Source of the DNA: Brachycybe producta
Taxonomy: Eukaryota > Arthropoda > Diplopoda > Playtdesmida > Andrognathidae
Length of the DNA stretch: 64,000 nucleotides
Assembly (NCBI GenBank): GCA_036925085.1
Contig: JAUPFP010000002.1
Span: forward strand, 13,424,100 to 13,488,099
Direction: 5' to 3'
In this document: positions 5,292 through 55,400 of the stretch, piece after piece
Numbering within the stretch: position 1 is the first letter of the stretch
How the letters are laid out: every line of letters begins with the position of its first letter
The notes under the pieces: model-generated
Seen by the model: only the letters and a program-made list of their open reading frames with translations
The model's database searches: none
What the model was told of the DNA's origin: nothing
Translations under genes and position numbers: made by a program

Positions 5292-7349
5292 TTAGTATTC
5301 GGATACGTTGAATGGTTTATTATAGACGAACCGTTCGACTGCCGTAAGAGCTCGTAGCGGTTCGTCAGCCGAAACAGTGTGACCAGCATTCCGCACTATT
5401 GCAAAGCAAAAATTAACGGCGCACGTGACGTAACCAGCCGTGTTCAGATCGTTCGTGTTGACTTTCCATACGATTCTTGTGGTCTGTGCGTACTGTGAAG
5501 CGTACTTCCATACGATGGAATCTATCGCGTTCGTCACGCCAGCTGTCGGCACTAAATAGTCCATGTTTCCCGAAATCAAGATCGTCTTGTATCCTCTGTT
5601 CAGGACGTTCTGTAATTGGTGGGTGAAAGGTGTAGCGAGATCTCCTGTTTCAGTTATTCCATCCATGATGACAGAAGAGAATTGGTTAAACGGTTGCCTT
5701 CCGACGTGAAGTGCCTGTCTCACTGGAGTGGAATTCACGAATGGAGTGTATGTGTTGAACCATTCTTTCTGATTGTCGTAAAGGATGTTGTCACTAGTTC
5801 TGATTCCGGAATTTTCCGCTAATAAATTGTCAAACGCTGTCACTGCCACTAGTTGAGCCGCTTCCATTTATCAAAAATGTGAGAATGTAAGATGCCATCT
5901 TATAGTGTCTCATTCGAGCGAGTACTACGAAACCGTTTTGCAACAATGATAGCATGGTCTTGAGCTTCTTGTCAATTAGGGCGTTCTGATAGAGATATTC
6001 GGCAGGTTTTAACATGTTGACCGGATCGAACAATGCCGACACTAAGATGAGCCCTTTGAAGTTGGCTTCAATGCTTTTGTTCGTTGTAATCATATCTGCA
6101 ATTACGATGGCATACTTGGCTACGAAAGAGAAAAAAATCATTTAAATGCATTTAGAACTTGGAAGTTAATGATCTTTGTAATATTATTTGTTAATTACAG
6201 TGGTTAATGTATAATAATAATTAAAAAGAAATTAAGGTTGGCTAATACCATACCTGCGTATGATTCTCCGGCGATGTAGAAATCATTGTTTTTAAACTCA
6301 GAGAAAACTTCGAAAAACTGTTTCAATGCTACGACCAAATCTTGAGCAATCAGTGAAGTTGTGTTTGTGTAAAAGTCAACCGACTCTGCGTAACTGAAAC
6401 CTAAATTGAAGAAAAACGCAGGGTTAGGTCATACAATTTATACTTCAGGTGATCCTATGTGAGCCTAGAGATACTCCAGCACGTTTTTAAGGAGTCGTAA
6501 GGTCTTTTGGTTGCAATATTTGAAACCATTTTGTATTATGCTAATTTGTCGACCCGTGGTCTATTTTGCTGTCTATGATTTGTTCTTCAGGAACATCTGT
6601 CTGTCAGCTTTAAGAAAAAAATGTATGTATTCTTTGGTATGTGCTTCAGGTAATGAGGTATTTTCATGACGTTTCGAATTGCTGTTTTGTTGCTGGAGTA
6701 ATTTGTAGCAACTTTTGAACCGCCAACTTGACCACGTCTGGTGGCGTGCACAACTCTTGAAGGGGGTCTAGGCTAGTAATCTTAAAGCCTTTATATTTTG
6801 TTGGAGTTTTGCTTTTACTCGCCTGTTCCTACAGGAGTGTCAATAAATAACACGTTAAATTCTGACATCCATGTGATGTTACGGTAATTCACTTTTCCAT
6901 CAGCTGTTATATAGTAGGGTCCAATTGCGCCAAAATTTCCATACATTGACGTTAGACCGGGTCCGCCGTCCATCCAGAGTACGAGCGGCTTTTTCGCTGA
7001 TTCATTCTGAAAAGGTAAAGTGGCTGTCATCAATTACAGACGAAAATAGAACGGTGCACAAAATCAGTCGACTTACGAGGGCTTTGAAGAACCAAAAGAA
7101 CAAATTGGTATCACCTTTTGTCCTAACCGTGAAAAACCCAGAGTAACTCTCGTAGTTCATTCCCAAAACATTTGGAACTCTACTTTGAGTCCTGGCCTTG
7201 TTGATTTGCCCATTCTCAATGAATGGAGTTAGGATGAGCGGCTCGTCTCTGGCTGAAGTAGCTCTTTTTTGCCGAGATCCTAATGTTAACCCTGTTCCCG
7301 TGGCACACAAGAGTACGGCTAAGACAAGAATTTGTCCGATCAGATCCAT
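5292..7349 (-). pseudogene. CPVL-type serine carboxypeptidase (S10), copy 2, frameshifted
   Basis: Same four-exon layout as its neighbours: 7077-7349, 6823-7006, 6254-6400 and 5292-6119. The signal peptide, WMDGGPG segment, serine box GESYAAKYA, Asp box SGNMDYLVP and His box NAGHTVSADEP are all present. In exon 4 the frame containing LINGSGSTSGSDSV hits a stop at 5830, while the homologous downstream sequence (SGIRTSDNILYDN) continues in another frame that is open from 5867. The spliced length is 1432 nt, one more than a multiple of three, consistent with a net 1-nt insertion near 5830-5867. This is either a recent pseudogene or a sequencing/assembly error; everything else is intact. Intron 2 appears to use a GC donor (GCGAGT), at the position where copies 1 and 3 have GT. 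Confidence 0.75.
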
Positions 7350-10913: not shown

Positions 10914-13498
10914 TTAAACACCGTTTGATACATTAAAAGGTTTATTGTTAATGAACCGTTCTACTACGGTCAGAGCTCGAAGCGGTTCGTCTCCCGGAAG
11001 ACGATGGCCGGCATTCCGCACTATTGCAAAGCAAAAATTAACGGCGCACGTGACATAACCGGCCGTGTTCAGATCGTTCGTGTTGACCTTCCATACGGTT
11101 CTGGTGGTCTGTGCGTACTGATTAGCGTAGTTCCACTCGAGTGAGTTTATCGTGTCCGTCATGCCGGCAGTCGGCACCAAATAGTCCATGTTTCCTGAAA
11201 TCAAGATCGTCTTGTAACCTCTGTTGAGGACGTTCTGTAGTTGGTCGGTGAAAGGTGTAGCGAGATCTCCGGTTTCAGTGATTCCTTCCAGGATGATCGG
11301 AGGGAAATCATTGAACTGTAGGCTTCCTACGTGAAGTGCCTGTCTCACCGGTGTGGAATTCACGAACGGAGTGTATGTTATGAACGTAGTTGGCTCGTTG
11401 TCGTAAAGGATGTTATCGCTCGATACGATTCCCGAATCGGCCGTGAAGAAGCTCGGGTGGTAAGCATTACCACCGGCAGATGTGCCACCTCCGCCTATCA
11501 GAAGGGCCATCATTTTCGAGGCCAGCGTATAAAATCTCACTTTTACGAGCATTGAAAACACACCTTCGAAGGTGGAAATCGTGGACATTAATTTCTTGTC
11601 GATCATGCCGTCTTGATAGAGATATTCTGCCGGTTTCACCATCTGTCCCGGGCTAAACATTCCTGAAACTAGAATGATACCTTTGAAGTTGGCACCAATG
11701 ACTTTGTTTGTTGTTATTATGTCGGCAACGACGATGGCATATTTGGCTATGGAAGAAAGATAAACAAATTTAAATTAATTTGGGACAAGAGAGAAATTGA
11801 AAGTGTGTTAGAAACTAGAACGGTAGCTGAATTACTTAATGGTATTTTTAAGTTGATATTTTTAAATAAAAGTTGAGTCATTTTCAAAATAACATAAAAA
11901 GCTTATTTTGAAAGATATCATCAACGTGAAAATATCTTCAAGTGATTTAGCTACCCTTCTAGTTTCTAAAGCACTTTCATGTTTTTCTCTCTGAACTACA
12001 AAATCAGAATTTGGGGGGCTTAATTTATGTTTTAAAAATGATTATCAAAAGTATTTAAGAAATTAAATGACCCATTTAATTACTAATTATGAGATGTTAA
12101 TCATAATTAAAAAACAAGAAATGGTTTGTTGTTGCCAAAAACAATAAACATTTTTGTTGTTGTAATTACATGCGTAAGACTCTCCGGTGACGTAGAAATC
12201 ATTGTTTGAAAACTCCGAGAAAACTTGGAAGAATTGCTTCAATGCGACGACCAAATCCTGAGCAATCAGTGAAGTTGTGTTTGTGTAAAATTCAACTGAC
12301 TTTGCATAACTGAATCCTTAAATATTCACAATTAATACCACAGGTGTTTTAATCAGGTTTAAATCATTTATTGGTTTTCCACCCAACCCCGACCCCACTT
12401 TTTTTTTCTCCTCACCTGTTCCAACTGGAGTGTCAATAAACAAAACGTTAAACTGGGACACCCAAGTGACGTTACGACGATTCACTTGACCGTCAGTCGT
12501 GATATAATACGGACCGATTTCCGCAAAATTGCCCGATAACGACGTTAGACCGGGTCCTCCGTTCATCCAAAGTACGATCGGTTTATGTGCTGAGTCATTC
12601 TGGAATATTATTTAATTATTTATTTGGGTGTGGAAAAATTTAGGATACTAGAAAGGTCGCTCAATCACCTAAGAGTATTTTTCATGTTGATATCTTTGTT
12701 TATGTCAGTTTGAAAATGAACCAACTAATTCGATAGGTTTTAATGTTTTGTCTATTATAAAAAAGTTTATTTTAAAAGATAATCAACATTAAAATACCCT
12801 TAAATTATAGAGCTACTCTTCTAGTTTATTATAATTTTGCTCCTGGAAGCTGAAGAGTTCAAAAATCAGCTTAAAGAAACAACTTTCAAGTTTTATAGGA
12901 AACTAGACCGAAGGTACGGTGATAATTTTCGTTATATTTTTCAAAATGGACTTTTTATTGCTATTTTAAAAAAGGTTGTCATCATTTATTTCTTTTAGAC
13001 AATCAGATCAAATGTAAGATAAAAACGCTTAATATTTCGGCTTTTTTTTTAAAAAAAAATGTCATTAGAAGTAAAAAGTTTATTTTCAACTATATTTTCA
13101 TGAAAATTATTTATGTAACTTTGGTTACATTTCTAGTTTCAAATGTTATTCTTAAAAAAAGCTCTTTAAGTAGATTATTTTTGGTAAAAATGAATGGATC
13201 TTACGAGTGCTGGAAAGAACCAAAAAAACAAATTGGCATCAGCATCCGGTCTGACGGTGAAAAATCCGGAATAACTTTCGAGGTTCATTCCCATTACGGA
13301 TGGAACTCTACTTTGAGTCCGCGCTTGTTTAATTTGTCCTTTCTGAATGAATGGAGTTAAAATAAGGGGCTCTTCATTATTATCATCATTAGATGAAGGA
13401 AAACCTCGCGATTGATGACACGATCCCTGCAATATTACACCAGTTCCAGTTATAAATATCAGCGCGATTAAGACAAGGATTCGTTCCATCAGGTCCAT
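10914..13498 (-). CDS. CPVL-type serine carboxypeptidase (S10), copy 3
   Basis: Four minus-strand exons: 13205-13498, 12416-12599, 12170-12316 and 10914-11746; together 485 codons plus a stop. The start at 13498 (MDLMER) was chosen over an upstream in-frame ATG at 13513 because it aligns with MDLIGQ of copy 2. Exon 1 encodes a signal peptide, then FIQKGQI and SYSGFFTV. Exon 2 has WMNGGPG. The nucleophile box across exons 3 and 4 reads GESYASKYA. The Asp box is SGNMDYLVP and the His box NAGHRLPGDEP, so the triad is complete. Copies 2 and 3 are closer to each other than to copy 1 (for example in the TAGYVTCAVNFCFAI segment). M1-type MITEs occupy introns 1 and 3. Confidence 0.9.
11785..12007. 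mobile_element. MITE, family M1, in carboxypeptidase copy 3 intron 3
   Basis: Contains GAAACTAGAACGGTAGC on the left and TAGCTACCCTTCTAGTTTC on the right, in near-palindromic arrangement. Confidence 0.7.
12636..12870. mobile_element. MITE, family M1, in carboxypeptidase copy 3 intron 1
   Basis: Left half ACTAGAAAGGTCGCTCAATC, right half GAGCTACTCTTCTAG, then TTTTGCTCCTGGAAG. A further degenerate copy may follow at about 12895-13140. Confidence 0.65.
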
Positions 13499-14544: not shown

Positions 14545-15037
14545 GGGGCGACTGAATAAGCGCCAAATTGAACAAACGCCAAACTGAATAACCGCCAAAT
14601 TTTTGGCTTTTATTCAGTTTGGCGTTTCTTCCATTTGGCGCTTATTCAGTTTGGCGTTTGTTCCATTTGGCGCTTATTCAGTTTGGCGTTTGTTGCATTT
14701 GGCTTTTATTCAGTTTGGCGGTTATTCAGGTTTTTTGTTAATTCTGATGGTCCAAATATTGTGAGCTTTTATAGACGTCAGACTGTGCAGATTTACAAAC
14801 AGAACATGCTAACCTAACCAAATCTAACCTAACCTAACAATGTGTTTATCACATTTGGGCGGTTATTCAGTTTGGCGCTTGTTCAGTTTGGCGTTTGTTC
14901 CATTTGGCGCTTATTCAGTTTGGCGTTTGTTCCATTTGGCTTTTATTCAGTTTGGCGTTTGTTCCATTTGGCGTTTATTCAGTTTGGCGTTAGTTCAATT
15001 TGGCGCTTGTTCAATTTGGCGCTTGATCAGCGCCACC
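14545..15037. mobile_element. Fold-back minisatellite element with 8-bp target duplication
   Basis: Both ends consist of alternating GCGCCAAATTGAAC and CGCCAAACTGAATAA units pointing inward in opposite orientations; the interior is many tandem TTTGGCG(C/T)TT-plus-ATTCAG units. The element is flanked by a perfect direct repeat GGCTCAAC (14537-14544 and 15038-15045), as expected of an 8-bp target-site duplication. A short AACCTAACC run lies inside (about 14812-14838). No transposase frame is present. Confidence 0.7.
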
Positions 15038-38524: not shown

Positions 38525-41500
38525 TTAAGAATTTTCATTTGGCAACTTCTTTAACGTCTCTTCCAAGTTATTTACGACTCGAGTCAAATAACAAGGGCCA
38601 GTGTTGACTTTTGTAGCCTCTATCAGGGTGTCCTCACTGTTAAGATCAGAATAAAAACACAATTTGGATATATTAAGACTGAAAACAAAACTAGTAAAGG
38701 TTTTTGAATACTAACGGTGGTTTTCCATACAAAGACGCGATAGAAAACGAAATGGGTTCATCTGGATACGTTCCGGGAATGATCGCGAACTTCAGCACAA
38801 AGTCGATCATTAAGTTCAGATCGATAAATTCGATCGAAATGCTGGGGGGGAAAAAAAATAGATCGGAAACGAATTGAGTCGTTTAAACGTTGGCTACGAT
38901 AACTTCTACATGAACTTTTACTTTTCGTCTTTGACGAAGACATTGTGCGATACGGTTATCGATTGCAGATTGGAATACAACATTCGAACGTTTGTCGAGG
39001 TTACGGAGATCTCGTGAAAGACCTTAAAAAGAGATATAATAAAAAGAAGAACGGGGATTTAGAAAGTGGCTGTCTCGATTCGATGATTTAATATACATAT
39101 TTGAGATCGTCTGTGGTTCTACAACGACGCAAAAGATCCTCTCGATCGATGCTCCTCCACAGGGAGTCGTAACAGTAACGTTTAAGTGGATCGGAACCAT
39201 CTACGATAAAAAAAATGTGTCAAAATGATTCCGAATTCACAGTGCCACTTGTCGTCAGGAACAACCAGTCCCTCTTAAAAGCATAGAAAAACACAAATAG
39301 TGTGTAACCTTTGAGTTCGGACCATTTGGAAACTCCAACGATGGTCTGAACTTTTCCTCCAGACACGAGTGGCGGCGCCAAGGAGAAACTTAGATGTAAT
39401 GTGTCGTTCAAGAAGGAGAGGTGCAGAGTTGTGTCCGACCATTCGGAAATGAAGAACTCGCAGCATCGTGTGAGCCACATCAGTGACGTCCATTGTTTCT
39501 CCTCTGCTTCTTTTGCTTTTGTGGCTTTTTCCACTTCGGTTTTTAAAGTTTCCTCCTTTTCCTGCATCTCTCGACGCTCCTTTTTTTCTGCACGAAGGAC
39601 ATCGTCCAGTTTATTCAGCGTCTGTTGCTTCTGTTCAATCTCAGCGTTTAGTCTTTCTAGCTCCAAACACTCCTCCTCCGTGGGAAGGTCTCCGACAAGA
39701 CGATTAAGACAACAACAAGCTACAAAAAACAATGAGAAAAAAAAATGACTTTGTCATCAGAGGGATATTTTTTTGGCACACATCAAAATCGAAGAAAGGT
39801 CCTTAGCTTTTTAAAAGCAATTTTTAAAACAAATTTTATTTCAAACTAGAAGAGTAAAGAAATGGAATAAAGATATTTTTCCTCAAATGCAGGGTTATAT
39901 TCTATCTTTTAAGCAGAAAAATTAAGACAAACTTGAAAGTGTTTTAGAAAAATCAACTGTTTAAAAAAAAAAACGTTTATTTTTAAAGATTAGTCATGGA
40001 AAAATAGCTTTATTCCATTTTTTTTTTTACTTTTCTACTTTGTAATTAAATTTTGAACTTTTTTAAAAATATGCTTCTAAATACTTACGGACTATTTATT
40101 GTATGGTTAAAATTTTTACTGGTATTTTAAATTTTAAAATTTGACACATTTCTCAAGACGTTCCACTGAAATTTCACCTGACTCAAAATCATAAACGAGA
40201 TCTTCGGCCATTTCCAGCAATTGAGGCATTTCTTGAGAAACAATTTCATCGTCATCCACTTCTGAAACGACTTCGACCTTCTTCTGAACGAGTGGTTTAA
40301 AACTGATCCTCGTTTCTGTTTTCCGGTTGGTGATCGGCGACGTTACCATAATATTTGTATCGAGAATCGGCACGAGATCGATGGATTCCTTGATTGTATC
40401 TTTCAACTCCGAAGCCAAGATCTCGTCTTTTTCAGTCTCACTCTGCTTAGAAACTTTTTCAGTTGTCGGACGATCGCAAGAGAGAACCGCTGTGATCGTT
40501 GTCGTTTCAGTCGTGTCCTTCGTTTTTACGTTGATGATCTGATTCGTAACGACATTATTTGTATCGACGATCAGCTCGAGATCGATGGATTCCTTGATCT
40601 CATCTTGCACCTCCGAACTTCGTTTCTTAACTGAGATCTCTTGATCTCTTTCGATCTCTGTCTGTTTCAGTATTTCTTCAGCGATGGAATGATCGCAAGA
40701 GGCAAACGTTGTGATCATTGAACTCCTAATCGTCTCCATTGTCGCGTTCGGAAATTCCACGTCGTCGATATTCTCGTAATTCTTACTAATATTGTCATCC
40801 ACCGAAAGTGCACTGATGTGAGACTCCGCTGCAGTTGTAATTTGCGGTACTTTTACACGAGATCGTGACAGAGATTCGTGTTTTAGGTCAGTTACATGTA
40901 CTTGTTGTTTCAATGACGATAAGATCAAATCGTCTCGAACAATCTCGTCACTCGGGTTAGCGATCGTAAGATTGTCTCGTACGTCGTCCACTGTAACAAC
41001 CATTTCGTCCTCAAAGACGCTGTCGTCATTAAGTTCTGGCAACTCAGAGCCCAAAGTCTTCATCATACTCGCGACATCCGTGATGTTGGTGCTCTTTGAC
41101 GGTGTCATCTTTTCCAAGTGACTCGTGGAACTGAGTAAGCGAAACGACAGAAAGTGGCTACGAGACGAAGATGGATGCAGAGTCGGTCTTTCTGCTGGTC
41201 GCTCCTTTGTACGAACTTCATCTTCAGTTATCGGTTTCCGTTGTTGTTGTTCTTTGAACGATGCATCTGATGCTCGCTTCTTTTGAAAGCGTTCCTCAAT
41301 TGTGTTGCAGAGGGGTCGCTTTTTCTGAATCGATTGGTTAGAAGTACCGATTATCGCTCTTTCACTTTGTCGCTCCTTCTTACGAATTACATCTTCAGCC
41401 ATCGGTTTCATTTGTTCTTCTTTGTACGGTACATCGGGCGATCGCATCTTTTGGACGTGTTCATCGATCACATCGTACGTTGATTGCTTTTTTGGAATCA

Positions 41501-44500
41501 GTTGTTTAGAAGTAGCGATTATTGCTTCTTCAATTTGTGGCTCCTTCGTATCAATTTCATATTCAGTAGTGATCGGTTTCCTTTGTTGATCTTCTTTGTT
41601 AGATACAGCGGGTGAATTCTTCTTTTCGAAACGTCCCTCGCTCGTTACATGTAGTGATCGCTTTTTTGAAGATGAGGCTTCGTTCCCTTTTCTGATTATT
41701 TCTTCTTCTGCTTGTCGATCCTTTATACAAACTTCAGCTATCGGTTCCTTTTGTATTTCTCTATGCGATGCATCGGACGATCGATTCTTTTCGTCGTGTG
41801 TCTGAATTGTGTTATGCAGTGATCCCTTTTTTGAAATTGACGATCGGTTCGAAGTAACGATAGTCGCTTCTTCCGTTTGTGGTTCCGTCGATTTCACCAT
41901 CGATCGATTCTCGGCTTCTTCGTGTCGTTTCGCCAGATTATCTCCTTCAACAAGAACAATTTCATCGATGTTAACTTCTTCAACTTTGCCGACGATCGAA
42001 GACTTCTCTGTGTCTATAATGTCTTTTTCGGTCTCGATTTTGTTTTCCATTTCGACTATTTTCAGTTCGTTATCAATTTTACTGTAGGATTTTATATGGG
42101 ATGCATTCAGTTGCGGCTCACATTGAGCATTAAAAGACTGTTCTTTTGGCTTTGACGTGGAACAAACCGTTAAAATCCTTGGGCTGAAATTGTGAGTCAA
42201 ATTCGTGATATCGATCGTTTCATCGTTTAACACCAAGTTCTCTTCATCATGTCCTTCGATCGTTTCTTCCTCTTCCGGTTTTTGTGGATCGTTTGAGATG
42301 GATTCCTCCTTTTTTCCCTCTTTGTTCGAACACTGTCCAACCGGATCTTCGTCCTCCATCTTTTCCTCATCTTTAGTTGACATCAGAATGTTTTCTTTCT
42401 TCGAGAATATCGTCTTAAGGACATCCTTAAGAGTACGATTTGTAGGAGGTGGAGTAAGAGGAGACGTGACCTTTCCCATTCCGGACTGATTCATCACGGT
42501 TTCCGTCAGATTCATAGTTTCGCCAAAGCCATCAAAGTAAATCGTCTTATTTCCCTTCTGCAACCAGGAATGCTCCTGTGGTTGTTCAGTGATGTCCATC
42601 TGCATGTCGCTGCATTCGTCTTCAGAAGGAGAAGGTTCGACATAGAAGCTACGATTAGTCTGGTCGATGCTCATCTCGAAATCGTAGCAAGTTCGTTCTC
42701 CGACGATCGAATGATCACTGAGTGTCTCGAGTGCCTTACGCTTACATCCTCCTCCGCTACGACGGCGACCGTGTTTTTTAAATGATTCAACAGGTTTTGT
42801 CTTCGAGCTGCCGACATTGTCGTTATAGCTAGAATCTTTACTGGTATCTATCGAAAGAGGGAGATACTGAATGGGTCCCGTTAGAAGCAAACCAAGATCG
42901 GGCCGAGATCTAGCCGAAGATTCCGATTCTTGGTCTTTCCGTACTTCGCAAGATCTGTGGTTTTCAATGGAAATCGGAACGATATTAACTAATAAAGCGT
43001 TTGAAAGATGTGAAAAAAGGCTTTAATAATTTACTTTTCCATTGCAGAAGTCGCATCTTTGCTTTGTTTGTCGTTCGGCTCTTTGTTTTTCTTATCTAAG
43101 CAAAAGAGAAATTTCAATTCAAATGAGTTCGAAAACCAAACTCTTCACAAACCAACACTTCATAAAAAAAATGTTTTACTAACCGATGACAATCGGAACA
43201 TCTTTGTTGTTCTCTTTGTCGATGCCGATACGAGGATCGAGACAGAATTCTCTGATAAAAACAACAGTAATACAGAGATATTAATTTATCATAGAGAGAA
43301 GAAACTTGGGACGATCCGAATCGGGATCTTCGTATATATTCATCTTTCACTCAACTGTACTTGACACGTGTTTGCAAAGCTGACTCTTTTCGAAATACGT
43401 TTTTCTTCCACTTGTTGTTCCGTGTCCATTATAATCTTAAAAACGTTGAAAGCAAACACAAATCGAACGTCACAATTGACCGAAATATGGCAAGCCGTTT
43501 TATTTTTAAATCACTTTTTTTCTCAATGCCACGCATATCCACAATTTTAGAGAATTACACATATCTCTAATTGAATTGCAGATATCTCTAATTCAATTAA
43601 AGATATCAGTATGTGGCGAAATATAGTAATGTATGTTAGCAGCTACATACTTGATTTCATTGCCACCTGCCGGTGAATGGCAATTTACAGCAGGATTTTG
43701 TATCTTTGATAATATAACAACGTTATGTCAATTGTATTAGAAATATCTCCAATTGTATTAGAGATATCTTTAATTGAATTAGAGATATCTGTAATTCAAT
43801 TTGAGATATCCAAAATTGAATTAGAGATATCAACAAGCTCAGTTCTATTTTTGATATCTCTAACTGAATTTGAGATATCAATAATTAGTTTAATTTGTGA
43901 TATCTGTAATTGCATTCGAGATATCAAAAATTTAACCAGAGTTTTTGATATCTCTAATTCAATTTTGGATATCTCAAATTGAATTACAGATATCTCTAAT
44001 TCAATTAAAGATATCTCTAATACAATTGACATAACGTTGTTATATTTTCAAAGATACAAAATCCTGCTGTAAATTGCCATTCACCGGCAGGTGGCAATGA
44101 AATCGAGTATGTAGCTGCTAACATACATTACTATATTTCGCCACATACTGATATCTGTATTTGAATTAGAGATATCTGTAATTGAATGAATTGTAGATAT
44201 CTGTAATTCAATTAGAGATATGTGTAATTCTCTAAAATTGTGGATATGCATGGCATTGAGAAAAAAAGTGATTTAAAAATAAAACGGCTTGCCATACCGA
44301 AACCCAAAGTTTTAAAGACGGAAACTTAGCAATTGAACCTTCTCAAAGTTGTTCCAAAATTATATATGTAAAAAAAACTGTACGAAGAGTACTCTTTAAA
44401 ACTCCTGTTTTGAGGGTTCAAGTGCCAATTTTCTATTTCTTGAAGTCAAAACCTGCGTAAAATCATCAATCGCGACGTTGAAATCCACTTCCTGAAGTGA

Positions 44501-44876: not shown

Positions 44877-45557
44877 CTTAATCTATCAAAATATTCAAAA
44901 TAACAACAAGAAAAATTGATAAAATCAACTAAATTTCGTCAAATTCTTCTTTGGTATATGCGTGAAATTCATTTAAAAAACCTCCATTTTTCCGTTACTC
45001 AGCGATACTGAGCGACTTATTCACCATTATGACGTCACTTATTTTAAAATATAATGAAGTTCTGTCACACTGCTAAATAATCCGATGAGTAACGGAATGT
45101 TCTGAAGGGTCATAGGCTCATAGCCAATGGAAGGGTAATCTGGCGGTTTTACGCGACAGTGTTGCCAGATACACGTTCAGGAAAATATCTCCTTTTTAAC
45201 CTAACGTAAAAACTCCCCAAGTCCCCATATACTTACTATAGAGAAAGGGAAAGAGGGTGAGTTTTGTCAACTTTTGTGTCGCGTTCTGGCTTTATTTTAA
45301 GCAACGTTTTTGAATACAAGGATTGAGAGGATGTATGTATTTATTTACTGTCTTGAAAGTTTTTGCTTAAGTTAAATTGTTAATATTTATATCGATTTAA
45401 TCGTATATAATTTGTATCGATTTAATTGTATATAATTTGTATCGATTTAATTGTATATAATTTGTATCGATTTAATCGTATAATCGTGTAGAAAATCGAT
45501 TTTAAAATAAATTTCATCATAGTTTGAACATAAAGTTTTAAACATATAGCGCAATGT
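44877..45557. other. Upstream of KNL1; left part of an interrupted repeat
   Basis: KNL1 promoter region followed at about 45390-45490 by four copies of a 24-25-bp unit (TATCGATTTAATTGTATATA). At about 45495-45557 AATTTCATCATAG and AAGTTTTAAACAT match sequence just upstream of the tRNA-like repeat inside the palindrome. The downstream remainder of this repeat resumes at 51343. Confidence 0.6.
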
Positions 45558-45596
45558 TATGGAAGCCCGTTTGGGACATTTTGCACAATAATTTAC

Positions 45597-45845
45597 GTTC
45601 AATTATATTGCGTGCGCGCTCAATAATATTGTGCACACGCACAATAATATTGCGCACACGCACAATAATATTGCGCACACACACAAATATTGTGCGCACA
45701 CGCTCAATAATATTGTGCACACACACGCAATAATATTGCGCGCACGTTCAATATTATTGTGCACCCACACTCAATAATATTGTGCACACACACGCAATAA
45801 TATTGCGCGCACGTTCAATATTATTGTGCACACACACACACAATA
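45597..45845. repeat. Minisatellite in the left palindrome arm
   Basis: About ten units of 20-24 bp built on the palindrome CAATAATATTG plus (CA)n or (CG)n spacers. The right arm counterpart is 51141-51303 with a different number and order of units. Confidence 0.85.
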
Positions 45846-46786
45846 AAATGTCCCATTTGGAGCACCAGTGAGAAAGAAGTAATCGTGCACAATACCTTAT
45901 TGGTCGAGAGAAATGGGGTGGGGTTTTCGTACTTGAAAGACGCTGCCCAGAATGACGACACAAGATGTCCGCCTAGTTTGACTGCTTTTCATAAAAGAGG
46001 GCGCGCCTATATATAAAAACAATATTTAAATGAATTTTAGGTTACAACGCTCTTTATAATGTCGTTTATGCAAGGATACTACATAATAGCTTAGACTATC
46101 ACCTTAGAAGAAGAATAGCATTTATTGCTCACTTCTCTTTGGTTGTTGAAAGTAATTGTAACTCATATTACTTGAGTTACTTTTTTTTTCACAAAAAATG
46201 AGCAGAAATTATAAAATCGAAAAGGAGCGAAAGTTATTTTTATGAGTTTCGACATTCCAATCACTTTCATATCAAACTCAGTAAAAGCAAAGATCACAAT
46301 AGTTAATTACAGCTGCAATTTATTTTTCAAAATGCAAAATTTAATTGCTTTGTATAACGATGAAAACAATTTTTTTTTCTGAAAATGTATTCGTAATTAT
46401 ATATTAATTAATTATGCTTATAATTTAGGCAGAATTAAGAAGAAGAAAATAAGTAATAATTAGGATGTGTAGCTGCATATCTTTAAAACAAAGTCTCGTT
46501 TAAATTTGCTTTTGTTGTCTCTCTCGTAGTTTATAAATATTAGTTTAAAAAAAGAAATCCCTGTTAATTACCCTGTGATATATTTATTCTGCTAATTAGA
46601 TTTGTGTTTAACAAAGACAAAAAAAAAATGCAAATTTGAAATATTTTTCAAGTAGGATTTTAAAATTGAAAAACGGTTTTTTAACGTTTTTTCTCCCGGT
46701 TTGAAGTCACATAATAATTAATTGAAAAATAATTTCGCGAGCTAATCTTCTAAAAAAAAACATTGTGAAGCCAGTAGATTAATGCA

Positions 46787-47345
46787 TGTGCTAATTTTTG
46801 TGTGATTGTTCTAAGTCGTTTTTAATGGGAGTTCTTCAAATGTTTGGGTGACGGTTTTTTGGTCCTATGGGAATTAACATGGAGTTAAAAAAACGTAAGA
46901 TTTTAAATGTTATTTAAAAATAGAAAGACCTTTTAAAATTTAGAAAAAGGAATAAACCTGAAGGCAATAAACACGTGTAAGTACGTGCTAATTTTTCTGA
47001 TTGCTCTAAATCATTTTTAATGAGAGTTCTCTTAACTTTTGTTGGACGGTGTTTTAGTCCTATGGGACTTAACATGGAGTTTAAAAACGTACGATTTTAA
47101 ACGTTATTAAAAAATAGAAGGACCTTTTCAAAATTAATAAAAAGGAAACATCGTGAAGCCAATACATGAATGTATGTGCTAATTATTTTGTTATTGTTCT
47201 AAATCAGTTTTAACGAGAGTTTTTCAAATGTTTGTGGGACGGTTTTTGATCCTATGGGATTTAACATGGGGTTGAAAAAACGAACGACTTTGAACCTTGT
47301 TTAAAAATAGAAGGACCTTTTCAAAAATTATATAAATCGAGCACA
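46787..47345. repeat. Three tandem units of about 190 bp in the left arm
   Basis: Each unit has GTGCTAATT, ATTG(T/C)TCTAA(G/A)TC, the core GGTCCTATGGGA or a close variant followed by TTAACATGG, then AGAAGGACCTTTT. The mirrored array is at about 49650-50230. Confidence 0.8.
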
Positions 47346-47627
47346 TGAAGAACAATACTTTTTATTGCATTTTGCGCTTTACTGTATTTGAATTGAGCGA
47401 TTGTGAGGTGATTTCTTGCAGTTTTAGTAACACCATATAAGAACACTCATTTGCCTCGTTGTCATCTGCTCAAAACAACAAGATGGACGTGGATCTAGGC
47501 TCTTATGGGTGAGCACAGAGGGGGAAAAAGCGGGAATAAACGGCCGTGTTTGCAAGGCCGTCTTTAGAATTATAAATTAACGACCCTATTTGCAACAACC
47601 ATAAGTTTTAAAATTGTAGGCTATGAA

Positions 47628-47701
47628 TTGGCTGAGTGGCGTAATGGTAAAATCTCGGCCTTCAGAACCTGTGGTCCGTGGTTCGATTCTCTGTTGGGAC
47701 T
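47628..47701 (+). repeat. tRNA-like sequence in the left arm
   Basis: An A-box-like TGGCTGAGTGG and a B-box-like GTGGTTCGATTCT are at normal tRNA spacing, but acceptor and T stems do not pair well, so it looks like a tRNA-derived relic, not a functional gene. The mirrored copy is 49284-49358. Confidence 0.6.
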
Positions 47702-47739
47702 GTTAATTTTTAATTATTTAATTTAAATTGTTAATAACC

Positions 47740-48373
47740 ATTATATCGATTTAAAAATAATATCGAAAAAATATCGATTTAAAATCGATTTAAAAAATAA
47801 ATTTCATCATAGTATAAATATAAATATAAGTTTTAAACATGTGGTATATGTAGATGCCTGAATAGTGCAATTGGTTAGAGCACCTGACTATGAACCTTGG
47901 GGTAACTTAAGGTCATGTGTTCGAATCCAGGACGTGTCTTTTTCATGCATATGTCTACCAGAGTTGATCTGCTCTGCTGCAATGTTTCGATTGAATGAAT
48001 ATGTCGTCATATTCAATCCTTCTCTGTGGGGATGTGCTGCGGTACATGGTCCGGTGTAGGTTGGTGGTTCCCAACCTCTCGGTAAGAGGCCTTAAGAGGC
48101 TGCGCTGCCCACCAGAGTTGGTTGAGTTGGTTGAAAGTGTCGGAAAGATACGACGGGAGAAGATGTGACAGGGAGTCCAGTGGGTTTCGAGCCCTCGGTC
48201 AGAGGCTACCATACTGTTGCAATATCTCCCTGATATCTCCCAAGTACACATGAAAACTATATGATTGCATTGAAATTCGGGTTGGAGCTGGGTCCTTAGT
48301 AGATCGACTGTTGGCTTTTGAAAATAATTTTAAATTAATGATTTTTTAATTATTTTTTAATTTTATTTTGAGC
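47740..48373 (+). mobile_element. tRNA-headed SINE-like repeat, copy A (left arm)
   Basis: AT-rich leader with repeated ATCGATTTAAAA, then a tRNA-like head (A box TAGTGCAATTGG at about 47863, B box GTTCGAATCC at about 47919), a body with GGTACATGGTCCGGTGTAGG, and a tail in which GGGTTTCGAGCCCTCGG looks like a second B box on the opposite strand. Copies B (right arm) and C (outside, from 51343) share the whole structure. Confidence 0.7.
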
Positions 48374-48611
48374 AAAGGGGAAATTGCAGCTGTCGACGGA
48401 CTCCTTCTTTAGGATAATTGAGTTGGGAATTCCTATCGCTTGATAAATCATAGCCGAATAGCGACCCTAGTGGCAAGTTCGGTGAACTACTTCCAGCGTC
48501 GAAAGGCAATCGTCAAATTTGGCGCCTTTAAAGAAGGATTCCGTCGCCACTCAAAATAAAATTAAAAAATAATTAAAAAATTATTAATTTAAAATTATTT
48601 TCAAAAGCCAA
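48374..48611. other. Spacer between the palindrome arms
   Basis: 238 bp of non-palindromic sequence at the centre. Within it, CGACGGACTCCTTCTTTA and TAAAGAAGGATTCCGTCG are imperfect inverted repeats about 155 bp apart, so the loop may itself be a small inserted element. The last 60 bp (48552-48611) directly duplicate the inner end of the right arm. Confidence 0.65.
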
Positions 48612-49245
48612 GCTCAAAATAAAATTAAAAAATAATTAAAAAATTATTAATTTAAAATTATTTTCAAAAGCCAACAGTCGATCTACTAAGGACCCAGCTC
48701 CAACCCGAATTTCAATGCAATCATATAGTTTTCATGTGTACTTGGGAGATATCAGGGAGATATTGCAACAGTATGGTAGCCTCTGACCGAGGGCTCGAAA
48801 CCCACTGGACTCCCTGTCACATCTTCTCCCGTCGTATCGTTCCGACACTTTCAACCAACTCAAACAACTCTGGTGGGCAGCGCAGCCTCTTAAGGCCTCT
48901 TACCGAGAGGTTGGGAACCACCAACCTACACCGGACCATGTACCGCAGCACATCCCCACAGAGAAGGATTGAATATGACGACATATTCATTCAATCGAAA
49001 CATTGCAGCAGAGCAGATCAACTCTGGTAGACATATGCATGAAAAAGACACGTCCTGGATTCGAACACATGACCTTAAGTTACCCCAAGGTTCATAGTCA
49101 GGTGCTCTAACCAATTGCACTATTCAGGCATCTACATATACCACATGTTTAAAACTTATATTTATATTTATACTATGATGAAATTTATTTTTTAAATCGA
49201 TTTTAAATCGATATTTTTTCGATATTATTTTTAAATCGATATAAT
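48612..49245 (-). mobile_element. tRNA-headed SINE-like repeat, copy B (right arm)
   Basis: Mirror image of copy A, nearly identical, including A box, B box (GGATTCGAACAC on the plus strand) and tail. A few substitutions relative to A are visible (for example TCAAACAACTC against TCAACCAACTC types near 48862). Confidence 0.7.
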
Positions 49246-49283
49246 GGTTATTAACAATTTAAATTAAATAATTAAAAATTAAC

Positions 49284-49358
49284 AGTCCCAACAGAGAATC
49301 GAACCACGGACCACAGGTTCTGAAGGCCGAGATTTTACCATTACGCCACTCAGCCAAT
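49284..49358 (-). repeat. tRNA-like sequence in the right arm
   Basis: Mirror copy of 47628-47701 with the same A-box and B-box-like motifs. Confidence 0.6.
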
Positions 49359-51140
49359 TCACAGCCTACAATTTTAAAACTTATGGTTGTTGCAAATAGG
49401 GTCGTTAATTTATAATTCTAAAGACGGCCTTGCAAACACGGCCGTTTATTCCCGCTTTTTCCCCCTCTGTGCTCACCCATAAGAGCCTAGATCCACGTCC
49501 ATCTTGTTGTTTTGAGCAGACGACAACGAGGCAAATGAGTGTTCTTATATGGTGTTACTAAAACTGCAAGAAATCACCTCACAATCGCTCAATTCAAATA
49601 CAGTAAAGCGCAAAATGCAATAAAAAGTATTGTTCTTCACGTGCTCGATTTATATAATTTTTGAAAAGGTCCTTCTATTTTTAAACAAGGTTCAAAGTCG
49701 TTCGTTTTTTCAACCCCATGTTAAATCCCATAGGATCAAAAACCGTCCCACAAACATTTGAAAAACTCTCGTTAAAACTGATTTAGAACAATAACAAAAT
49801 AATTAGCACATACATTCATGTATTGGCTTCACGATGTTTCCTTTTTATTAATTTTGAAAAGGTCCTTCTATTTTTTAATAACGTTTAAAATCGTACGTTT
49901 TTAAACTCCATGTTAAGTCCCATAGGACTAAAACACCGTCCAACAAAAGTTAAGAGAACTCTCATTAAAAATGATTTAGAGCAATCAGAAAAATTAGCAC
50001 GTACTTACACGTGTTTATTGCCTTCAGGTTTATTCCTTTTTCTAAATTTTAAAAGGTCTTTCTATTTTTAAATAACATTTAAAATCTTACGTTTTTTTAA
50101 CTCCATGTTAATTCCCATAGGACCAAAAAACCGTCACCCAAACATTTGAAGAACTCCCATTAAAAACGACTTAGAACAATCACACAAAAATTAGCACATG
50201 CATTAATCTACTGGCTTCACAATGTTTTTTTTTAGAAGATTAGCTCGCGAAATTATTTTTCAATTAATTATTATGTGACTTCAAACCGGGAGAAAAAACG
50301 TTAAAAAACCGTTTTTCAATTTTAAAATCCTACTTGAAAAATATTTCAAATTTGCATTTTTTTTTTGTCTTTGTTAAACACAAATCTAATTAGCAGAATA
50401 AATATATCACAGGGTAATTAACAGGGATTTCTTTTTTTAAACTAATATTTATAAACTACGAGAGAGACAACAAAAGCAAATTTAAACGAGACTTTGTTTT
50501 AAAGATATGCAGCTACACATCCTAATTATTACTTATTTTCTTCTTCTTAATTCTGCCTAAATTATAAGCATAATTAATTAATATATAATTACGAATATAT
50601 TTTCAGAAAAAAAAATTGTTTTCATCGTTATACAAAGCAATTAAATTTTGCATTTTGAAAAATAAATTGCAGCTGTAATTAACTATTGTGATCTTTGCTT
50701 TTACTGAGTTTGATATGAAAGTGATTGGAATGTCGAAACTCATAAAAATAACTTTCGCTCCTTTTCGATTTTATAATTTCTGCTCCTATTTTTGTGAAAA
50801 AAAAAGTAACTCAAGTAATATGAGTTACAATTACTTTCAACAACCAAAGAGAAGTGAGCAATAAATGCTATTCTTCTTCTAAGGTGATAGTCTAAGCTAT
50901 TATGTAGTATCCTTGCATAAACGACATTATAAAGAGCGTTGTAACCTAAAATTCATTTAAATATTGTTTTTATATATAGGCGCGCCCTCTTTTATGAAAA
51001 GCAGTCAAACTAGGCGGACATCTTGTGTCGTCATTCTGGGCAGCGTCTTTCAAGTACGAAAACCCCACCCCATTTCTCTCGACCAATAAGGTATTGTGCA
51101 CGATTACTTCTTTCTCACTGGTGCTCCAAATGGGACATTT

Positions 51141-51303
51141 TATTGTGTGTGCGCGCGCAATATTATTGCGTGTGTGTGCACAATATTATTGAGTGTGGGT
51201 GCACAATAATATTGAACGTGCGAGCAATATTATTGTGTGTGTGTGCACAATATTATTGTGCGTGTGCACAGTATTATTGAGCGCGCACGCAATATTATTG
51301 AAC
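51141..51303. repeat. Minisatellite in the right palindrome arm
   Basis: CAATATTATTG units with TGTGTGTGC or GCGCGC spacers. It is shorter than, and not collinear with, the left-arm array. Confidence 0.85.
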
Positions 51304-51342
51304 GTAAATTATTGTGCGAAATGTCCCAAACGGGCTTCCATA

Positions 51343-51830
51343 CAATGTAGAAGGCTGAATAGCGCAATTGGTAAGAGCACCCGACTATGGACTTCCGAGG
51401 TCGCGTGTTCGAATCCCGGTCGTTTCTGTTTCATGTCATATCTGCCAAAGTTGACCTGTTATAGCGGGATTTCGATTTTAATGAAGAAGTCGTCATATTC
51501 AATTCTTCTCTGTGGGGATGTGCCGCGGTACATGGTCCGGTGTAGGTTGGTCGTTCCCAACCTCTCTGTAAGAGGCCTTAAGAGGCTGTGCTGCCCACCA
51601 GAGTTGGTTGAAAATGTCGGGAAAGATACGGCGGGAGAAGATATGACAAGGGAGTTCAGTGGGTTTCGAACCCTCGGTCAGAGGCTACCATACTGTTGCA
51701 ATGTCTCCCTAAAATAATCTCCCAAGTACATAATATGATTGCATTGAAAAGGTGGGTTGTAATATCTAGTCCTTAGCAGATCGACTGTTGTTGCCTTTTG
51801 AAAATAATTTTAAATTAATATTTTTTTAAT
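51343..51830 (+). mobile_element. tRNA-headed SINE-like repeat, copy C, interrupted at its 5' side
   Basis: Head with A box TAGCGCAATTGG (51360-51371) and B box GTTCGAATCCC (51408-51418), body GGTACATGGTCCGGTGTAGG, tail GGGTTTCGAACCCTCGG, ending AATAATTTTAAATTAAT. Its 5' leader lies at about 45390-45557 on the other side of the 5.8-kb palindrome. Joining the two flanks at CAATGT restores the arrangement seen in copies A and B. Confidence 0.7.
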
Positions 51831-52493: not shown

Positions 52494-55400
52494 TCAGATG
52501 AACGATCTGTCGTTATCGCTGTTGTCGTTTTGCGTCGTCGTTCTCATCGGAATCACTTCTACGTTTCCACCGAGAGACGCACTACGCTTCGGATAAGGAC
52601 ACCTGGAGGAGATCTGTTGAAGGATCAGTTCGTGTTCTGAACTAGAACTCATCTTTGTGTAACTGTTCTTTATAGGATGAGGCGAACCTCGATGGACTGG
52701 AGTCGGTTGTGTACCGGACCAGGTCACCTTGGTGTTTGGTTTCACTTCGCCGCTGGTTTCCACGAGAGGCGGCGGAGGAGGAAGAGGTGGAGGTGGATCG
52801 ATCATCTCCTCTTCGGAAGTGTGGCTACAGGTCTCTTTCACGATGCTCAGCCTTCGTGACGTACTGTCCGAAGAACGACGATCTCCTTCCATCTACGAAA
52901 TAACAAACAAAAGGTTGAAAACACATGAAACATATATTTATGCTTCGTTTATAGTCGGTCATTTAACAATAACGTTCTTCAAGAAAGACTACGAGAGAAC
53001 GTGATCGTGAAATGGCGACTATAAACGTAGCATTACATCAAAAAGTGTTTTAGAAACTAGAACAGCGAATAATTCATGTTTATTAAAACGTGAAAACGGG
53101 GCCTCTCGTACTTCGATTATTCTGTCTTTTTTTTTCTTTCATGTTGCTATCTTTCAAAATAAGAGTTTTTAATCATATTATATTTTTAAAAGTTCATTTT
53201 GAAAGATAATAAACCTTAAGTCTTCTGAAACCAAGAATAACCAGAGTAACCACTCTTTGAAACAGATCATAAACACACAATAATCAATAAATAAATGTGA
53301 ATTTCTACCTTATTATTGACCATTGTCTTCTTTTCCTTTCCTCCTCCTCCTCCTCCTCCTCCTGTACAGCAACAACCGTTGTTGTTTCCTTCCGAACTGT
53401 CTCTTCGTCGTTCCGGCGATGGAGTTTCGATCAGAGACGAAGTTGCAAAAGGAGATGGACAAGAAGCGCTGTTGTGATTCTTCTTACTCGCAGGATCCAT
53501 CAGAGAGATCTGAGTGAGAAGAGTTGATCCACGACGATGGTTATAACCACGTCCGACACCACCACCAGATCCGCTATGGTTGACGCCTCCTCCTACAGGA
53601 GGACGACCACCGACGTTCGTCAAGTTCGAACTATAAGTAGGTTTGTATTTATTTGCTTTCGAAGCGAATAAACCGTAACGATTCATCATTATGAACAGAT
53701 CTCTTCGATATTGTTTCGTAAAGATAGCGTACAGAAACGGATTTGCACAAGAGTTGAGAGGATAGAAGAAAACTAGAAGGATCTTGGAGTTGGTGACGTC
53801 GATTAGAGGATATCCGGCGACGGCCGTAAGTCCAAAGAAAGCAATCGGGGCCCAACAAGCGAAATCGGTGAAGACTAGAAGGGCCATTCGTTTCGCAACC
53901 GTTTTATCATTCTGAGTTACAGTCGAGTTGTGTCCACTGATTGACCAATACATTTTTCCATAACAGGCGCAGATTAGAACGAAAGCGAGTCCGTTGACGG
54001 TTAGAAGTACGATGAGATAAGCGATGTCGGCAGAATCGGAGTTCTCGAAAGGAAGACAGATACTCGTCTTCTGATAACCGCTGATTCCGACGAGAGGAAG
54101 AACGGCGAGTGCGATCGCGTAAGTCCATCCGAAAACCATAATACGAGCTGCAGCTCCGAGCCGTAATCTCTTGTTCAGATGAATTGCGTAAGTTATCGCG
54201 TACCATCTCTCGAGAGTGATGACGGTGAGAGTAAATATCGATAATTCGCTTCCGAAAACTGTCAAGAAACCTGCGATTTTACATCCGGGACCTTCTTGCC
54301 AGTCGATAGCGTAATTAAAATACTTTCCGATCGTATGAAGATCCATCGCAGCAACGACAAACAGGTAAAGTCCCATACAGAAATCGGCAAAAGCAAGATT
54401 ACACATTAAGAACTTGGATACGGTCATCTTGAAGCGGCTACTCATGAGTACGACCATTACGGCGAGGTTTCCGAGAACCGCAGCGACGACGACGAACCAG
54501 ACGGCGACACGTAGTCCGACGTTTCCCATGATGTCTTCGCATGGATTAAAAGGATCGGGTGCGGGGTCGCAACGCACCTCGTAGTAGTTTTTAGACCAGT
54601 TGCCGCACATTGCGAACAACGACGAATCTTCGTCTACATCTACGGCAACGTGGAATTTACCGCGGTCGATTCCGAAACCACGTTGTGACACGGAAGCGTT
54701 TGAGAGATCGAACCGACCGAAACCGACATCACCCATAGTAGTGACGGACACGTTATCGTCTACGACACTGTGAAAAGTACCGAAACCTCCGAACATTTGG
54801 CGTTTTTGTCGGATGTGACCCTTTTTAGCGATTGCGGACGAACCGACAGAAGCACAATTGAGACGTCGGTCTAGAACATATTTGTTATAGTTCTCGTGAG
54901 CTCCTCGGTTGTGTGTTTCGGGAAATCGGAACGCGCAACAGTGATAAGAATAAGTTAGGAACGCTTCTTCGATGTGATGGAAATTGTAGACTGATGGGAA
55001 CACTTTGAGGGTTTGAACGTTTTGAAGTCGTAATGTTTTAAGGTGCAGACGTTGAAGTCCGGCAGTCGGAAGTCGGATGATCTTTGTTTCCGAAAGATCT
55101 CTTTAAAAAGTGAACAAATTTTAAGTGACAATAATTTTTTCTTGGTGTTTTGATCAGGCAAATTAGTTCTTAGAACTTTTTAGAAGCATATTTTAAAAAG
55201 AAATTCAATGAAACAAATTAAAATATCTATTGAAACTACCTCTGCTAAGATTGTTTTCAAGTGTAAACGGGGTTTCTCGAACTTTGATTATTTTTTCTAT
55301 CAGAAGAGCAAACCAAAGAGAAACTTGAAAGTTTTTTAAAAACTAGAAGTGTAGCTCAGTCACTTCAGAGTATTTCATGTTAATAACTTTTAAAATAAAC

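Follow-up and report, generated by a model that had tools for sequence, protein, structure and literature searches.

What kind of element is the 5,785-bp fold-back structure at positions 45558-51342 of the stretch analysed here (the window: 64,000 nucleotides of contig JAUPFP010000002.1 of Brachycybe producta, assembly GCA_036925085.1), and how did its two halves come to mirror each other? A preliminary description had proposed that the structure is a mobile element that has tandem repeats in its arms and carries no transposase. Comparison with the host genome indicates that it is very probably a non-autonomous IS3EU/GingerRoot DNA transposon, and suggests that the palindrome has been remade several times in the family, possibly by inverse copying of one half.

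The element opens with TATGGAAGCCCG and closes with CGGGCTTCCATA (TATGG...CCATA), and a copy of CAATGT adjoins it on either side. Its inverted arms align in three pieces: 46181-48373 with 48612-50804 (2,193 nt, 99% identity), 45720-46197 with 50789-51266 (478 nt, 93%) and 45558-45664 with 51236-51342 (107 nt, 95%). Overall the arms are 98-99% alike, with 93-95% in their outermost parts, and this symmetry is far above chance. The sequence and the arm alignment thus bear out the inverted symmetry, the exact coordinates and the flanking repeats as first described. As a qualification, the 238 nt between the long arms are not mirrored. This centre includes one copy of a 63-bp tandem duplication found by Tandem Repeats Finder (TRF) at 48550-48674, the other copy of which lies outside it. 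The minisatellite and the three units reported for each arm are also found by TRF, which sizes the units at ~195 bp, at mirrored positions (Table 1). Two stop-to-stop frames reach 120 amino acids (aa): one of 124 aa, which is mirrored and so occurs in both arms, and one at 51193-51714, which begins in the right minisatellite, exits through the right end and has no Pfam match. The window copy therefore contains no coding frame of note, and the reported lack of coding capacity stands. Rfam microRNA matches, mostly in the minisatellites, are all under gathering scores and are put down to the inverted repeats there.

Two further arm components had been labelled a tRNA-like sequence and a tRNA-headed repeat. 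ARAGORN (bacterial setting) recognises neither the former nor the head of the latter. The Rfam tRNA model matches neither of them at E ≤ 0.1 and, at E ≤ 10, has no match on 47600-47960 and none on the copy of the repeat in the flank. The labels, for which these searches give no support, go back to A/B-box-like motifs seen by eye; they are kept below as names.

The outer 143 bp of the element, used as a query against the 295-Mb host genome, match at least 137 pieces, many of which are minisatellite units. In this terminus search 40 of 154 candidates were scored, which makes the figure a lower bound. Both ends are available for 19 copies. In their first 25 bases the other two-ended copies show 0-3 mismatches to the window termini. 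An exact 6-bp duplication flanks 11 of the 19 (the window copy, L010, L012, L015, L016, L018, L019, L020, C17, C6 and C1) versus 2 of 342 mismatched flank pairs, and none of 18 two-ended copies has an exact flank repeat of another non-zero length. When the two flanks of the window copy are joined, they align across the insertion point with the tRNA-headed repeat, and the sequence upstream of it, in the element's own arm. They constitute a paralogous empty site: the target was another copy, 82% identical, of the repeat that the element carries. Because copies with the same termini are dispersed through the genome, with 6-bp duplications and a paralogous empty site, the structure is a mobile element and not a segmental inversion, as the preliminary description had supposed. 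Another two-ended copy, L004 (C16, 1501-2192), has the same termini in 692 bp, a size like that of a miniature inverted-repeat transposable element, and shows no exact 6-bp duplication.

Two copies with the same termini are much larger, C6 (29.9 kb) and C1 (54.6 kb). Between their end pieces, identity is 98.5-99.2% in three stretches (3.0-6.0 kb) and 96.0% in 0.6 kb of the left terminal inverted repeat (TIR); their duplications differ, and they are therefore separate insertions. Each has a 490-aa frame that matches the integrase family rva_4 (PF24764; E 8e-83 and 7e-83), in which D243, D300 and E335 could be located, with 34 residues between D300 and E335. Searched against PDB sequences, the integrase had no match at E ≤ 0.001. 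Thus the window copy, which itself has no transposase, has coding relatives with the same ends, and the rva_4 integrase of these larger copies may bind its ends and move it. The C1 copy additionally has a gag frame, C17 (13.9 kb) contains reverse-transcriptase frames of a long terminal repeat (LTR) retrotransposon, and C74 (36 kb) has an endonuclease frame.

The larger copies also bear on the origin of the arms. The C6 copy was read in all but ~0.5 kb, with 11 frames scanned against Pfam (frames in satellites and some short frames excepted), and C74 and C1 were read outside most of their middles. In these parts a 0.84-kb block with the three ~195-bp units stands at one end only of C6, C1 and C74, whereas in the fold-back copies it stands in both arms; both arms therefore resemble that one end, with the segment 46129-46667 in addition. 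The latter segment also occurs alone at L030 (C31:1106500-1112500; 1986-2525, 540 bp, 97% identical), possibly the donor of the captured arm sequence. The C6 copy further contains long minisatellites with 20-60-bp periods (L023:5877-8744 and L029:2735-3693) that are open in several frames, probably owing to their periodicity only.

The assignment to IS3EU/GingerRoot is made because of the termini, the duplication length and the integrase in the same-ended copies. In the portions used here, Kojima and Bao 2023 (PMC10045372) place GingerRoot in one lineage with IS3EU, whose complete families end in TA..TA and usually make duplications of 6 bp; the TET-bearing IS3EU elements of rust fungi have TAYGG..CCRTA ends and 6 bp in the corresponding portions of Kojima 2025 (PMC12730594). 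Here, the window ends and those of the other two-ended copies are TA..TA, the duplications are of 6 bp at the frequency given above, and an IS3/IS481-like DDE transposase is found in the same-ended C6 and C1 copies, none being present in the window copy. The larger copies share with this lineage a further gene beside the integrase, HECT-like in this genome and, in the excerpted account of the TET-bearing fungal elements, TET/JBP and alpha-kinase (PMC12730594). Unlike those elements, the window copy is non-coding and has 2.7-kb fold-back arms. The genome also contains 7.1-kb elements of IS3EU type (L033-L036), at C7:6382437-6389556 (G000) and on C45, with the ends TACGGAGCCC..GGGCTCCGTA (TACGG..CCGTA), 6-bp duplications (CTTAAC and CAAATG, respectively), a ~0.8-kb minisatellite near one end, and a 402-aa rva_4 integrase convergent with a 640-aa HECT-like frame, both open. 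Matches on C11 and C13 have the same frame lengths. Over 333 alignment columns, the integrase of this type and the C6 integrase share 29% identity. The window element is very probably a variant within a known superfamily, not a new class, and a "transposase-less" fold-back element is thereby tied to a named superfamily via its termini, its duplication length and its integrase-bearing relatives.

How the palindrome was made can be read from its sister copies, which have differing centres. The 21 matches of an arm-specific probe form ten inverted pairs, with one fragment on its own. Every pair was examined, that of L032 up to but not including its right terminus. A colinear, asymmetric spacer of ~1.9 kb is kept in three copies (L012, L014 and L017). 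In six others the mirror symmetry reaches to a small centre, of 21 nt in L013, 45 in L015, 43 in L016, 49 in L032, 20 in L031 and 238 in the window copy. In L018 the arms measure 3.55 kb and the spacer 1.43 kb; the left side of this copy breaks off at template position 2427, where a mirrored segment that runs outward from 3811 is attached. These seven extended palindromes have different centres, at ~3811, 3851/3852, 3884, 4004, 4422 and 4525 in L012 coordinates. The set comprises copies that bear the spacer, palindromic ones and one junction, in L018, at which the jump is still visible.

The two halves of one copy differ at 0/2913 positions in L013, 1/2932 in L015, 0/2937 in L016, 1/2963 in L018, 3/2952 in L032, 5/2532 in L031 and 8/2304 in the window copy, and in the spacer copies at 15/2247 (L012), 8/2194 (L014) and 12/2190 (L017). 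This corresponds to 0-2.0 differences per kb within six extended palindromes, 3.5 in the window copy and 3.6-6.7 in the spacer copies; the nearest other copy is 4.3-16.5 per kb away. In trees of the halves, the two halves are sisters in nine of ten copies (L031 is the exception; the L012 pair is supported at 73 only), as they were in all eight copies of an earlier tree set.

We propose that the palindromes may have formed as follows. The process would start from copies with the asymmetric ~1.9-kb spacer. After a break or gap in such a copy, the surviving half would be copied in inverse orientation as far as its terminus; repair by fold-back or by templating between arms would rebuild one half, leaving a palindrome and resetting the two arms to near identity. 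The arms contain the family TIR, a subterminal block also present at one end of the integrase-bearing copies, and added repeat or host sequence. A comparable process, break repair templated by another TIR, has been proposed for Galileo, whose TIRs take in internal regions and are 98-100% alike within one copy, according to the sections of Marzo et al. 2013 (PMC3573991) relied on here. By this analogy, the present family appears to behave like Galileo in another superfamily.

The main rival to repeated inverse copying holds that one longer palindrome arose once, that the differing centres are later central deletions, and that gene conversion keeps the arms identical. We consider this possible, if distinctly the less probable account. 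By reasoning, a central deletion in a palindrome would give the same small-loop signature, and the small-loop copies L015, L016, L031 and L032 do form one clade. Against the rival, differences inside this clade are 0-2.0 per kb within copies vs 4.3-5.5 between copies, though gene conversion could also explain that. Two further results speak for more than one origin. First, palindromic L013 is sister to spacer-bearing L012 (support 99/98), and a single clade of palindromic copies is rejected by the approximately unbiased test (p-AU 0.004 with seven copies, 0.010 with six and 0.013 with five), p values that are somewhat optimistic since the classes, structural but defined after the first tree, and the six- and five-copy subsets, chosen afterwards, were not fixed beforehand. 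Second, the palindromic copies, L018 excepted, have lost the left part of the spacer and therefore cannot have been the source of the spacer copies. More than one origin of the palindromic state is thus probable, the arms having been equalised either at each event or afterwards.

Beyond the choice of classes and subsets, several observations weigh against our interpretation: (i) In all seven extended palindromes it is the same side of the spacer that survives; independent events would not call for this, and it is also a point in favour of the rival account. (ii) Good support is limited to two of seven inner branches, and the tree could be misled by exchange between copies. (iii) L015 and L016 probably share one event. 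(iv) In the window copy the arms diverge to about the same degree as in L014, the spacer copy with the smallest difference. (v) The matches of the C6 frame to the NCBIfam families IS481 (E 4e-12) and IS3 (E 2e-9) are under curated cut-offs. (vi) L010 and C17 have common flanking sequence and are possibly not independent. (vii) Eight of the 19 two-ended copies (L004, L009, L011, L013, L014, L017, L031 and C74) are without an exact 6-bp duplication. At the left end of L014 a second, tandem copy of the outermost 17 bp of the terminus adjoins the element, and beyond it ATTCAT matches on both sides; at the right end of C74 (L026) ~25 bp of the terminus are duplicated in tandem outside, with no match beyond; and in L031 the 6-bp repeat is displaced by 2 bp.

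The likeness to Drosophila FB elements noted in the preliminary description is real in architecture, yet it does not extend to kinship. Foldback elements make 9-bp duplications and have a Mutator-like transposase. That the family belongs to Foldback or to Galileo (P superfamily) is very unlikely, in spite of the long inverted arms of variable length, internal tandem repeats and non-coding body: the duplications are of 6 bp, and the transposase with the same ends is an rva_4 integrase, so that both memberships were rejected on duplication length and transposase type, the termini pointing to IS3EU/GingerRoot. The composite inverted arms with tandem repeats resemble those of Foldback and of the Mutator/Foldback element Tm1 of root-knot nematodes, which differs in its 9-bp duplications (PMC3169594, in the part drawn on here). 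Galileo has similarly long, internally repetitive arms, into both of which internal sequence and other transposons have been recruited (excerpts of PMC3573991 and PMC4168063); it bears no family relation, having a P-type transposase and 7-8-bp duplications (PMC4168063). The Drosophila willistoni Galileo copy 112 described in the latter source is 9 kb long and almost all TIR; its arms include tandem repeats as well as fragments of other transposons. As far as architecture goes, this close parallel makes the earlier remark that no described element has such a combination too strong.

Near-perfect palindromes are a known assembly hazard, and one copy, L011, includes 5,000 N. That we are dealing with an assembly artefact or a simple segmental inverted duplication is nevertheless highly improbable. 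Ten copies occur at different places; 6-bp duplications are present; mirror symmetry stops at the element ends, with inverted-repeat scores of 17-33 for the 300-bp flanks of 19 copies vs a mean of 22.2 for 342 mismatched pairs; and in seven of eight copies the two arms are unlike each other, mainly through gaps, in their outermost 400 bp. A Polinton/Maverick derivative, our first idea in view of the 6-bp duplications and the 30-55-kb copies such as C6 and C1, is the least credible alternative and was dropped: Polintons begin with AG and these ends with TA, the integrase matches rva_4 and, weakly, IS481/IS3, and DNA polymerase B, packaging ATPase, protease and capsid are found in 0 of the 11 scanned C6 frames.

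The repeated pairing of rva_4 integrases with HECT-like genes extends beyond this family. Genome-wide, 36 rva_4 matches fall into 25 loci and 71 HECT matches into 35. The nearest HECT match lies within 2 kb at 9 of the 25 integrase loci and is convergent in all nine; the chance of a HECT match within 5 kb is ~0.001 per locus. Four of the nine (C7, C11, C13 and C45) have identical scores and frame lengths; with these taken as a single family, the independent cases number six at most. At C3:10100732 a convergent HECT match lies 9.4 kb away, the same one as that of C3:10109459; in C6 and C1 it is on the same strand at 12-13 kb; and 13 integrase loci have no HECT match near. C74 has a HECT match and no rva_4 match. 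In C6 and C7 only the C-terminal third of the HECT profile is covered, and the C7 frame has no significant match to the 526-aa frame of the C6 copy (E 0.059). Our literature search, which did not take in Repbase or the GingerRoot paper, found no paper on such a pairing. A bolder conjecture, which we think doubtful, would make palindrome formation routine in the life cycle, each copy gaining a fresh mirror and its own centre during or after mobilisation, and would at the same time see IS3EU here as a two-gene system in which the integrase is paired with a convergent ubiquitin ligase of HECT type that aids transposition or helps to evade the host.

Table 1 Parts of the fold-back element and its insertion site, in window coordinates.
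Feature	Position	Strand	Remarks
Left target-site duplication CAATGT	45552..45557	.	
Left TIR proper, ~0.5 kb, with minisatellite 45600-45846	45558..46106	+	Common to short-TIR and integrase-bearing copies
Arm segment	46129..46667	+	In all ten fold-back pairs; once alone at C31 (97%)
Subterminal block, three ~195-bp units 46751-47336	46670..47505	+	89-92% identical in 30-, 36- and 55-kb relatives
tRNA-like sequence of the preliminary description	47624..47702	+	A/B-box-like by eye; tRNA models without match
tRNA-headed repeat, left arm	47852..48275	+	82% identical to right-flank repeat
Non-mirrored centre, 238 nt	48374..48611	.	Right part matches the right end of the others' ~1.9-kb spacer; ~76 nt unplaced
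Right arm, inverted copy of left	48612..51342	-	Repeat 48710-49133, units 49649-50234, minisatellite 51140-51305
Right target-site duplication CAATGT	51343..51348	.	
Host repeat, the insertion target, outside the element; entered at its 5' side	51349..51760	+	

Elsewhere in the window, minisatellites with a 16/32-bp period (TTTGGCGTTTATTCAG type) occupy 14553-15030, a short array in the opposite orientation standing beside the first. To the left of the element, 43552-44230 holds repeats of 21, 46 and 115 bp built on GATATC-containing units. A 962-aa frame without Pfam match on the minus strand (39223-43022) lies beside a weak match to the Knl1 RWD C-terminal domain (E 2e-4, below cut-off) and may represent a KNL1 kinetochore gene. 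The minus strand also has three frames for serine carboxypeptidases (Peptidase_S10), at 450-1304, 5295-5867 and 10917-11774; they share one orientation and are apparently a tandem gene family. Finally, 2 kb to the right of the element, a rhodopsin-type receptor (7tm_1) is encoded on the minus strand in one 611-aa frame (53270-55102).

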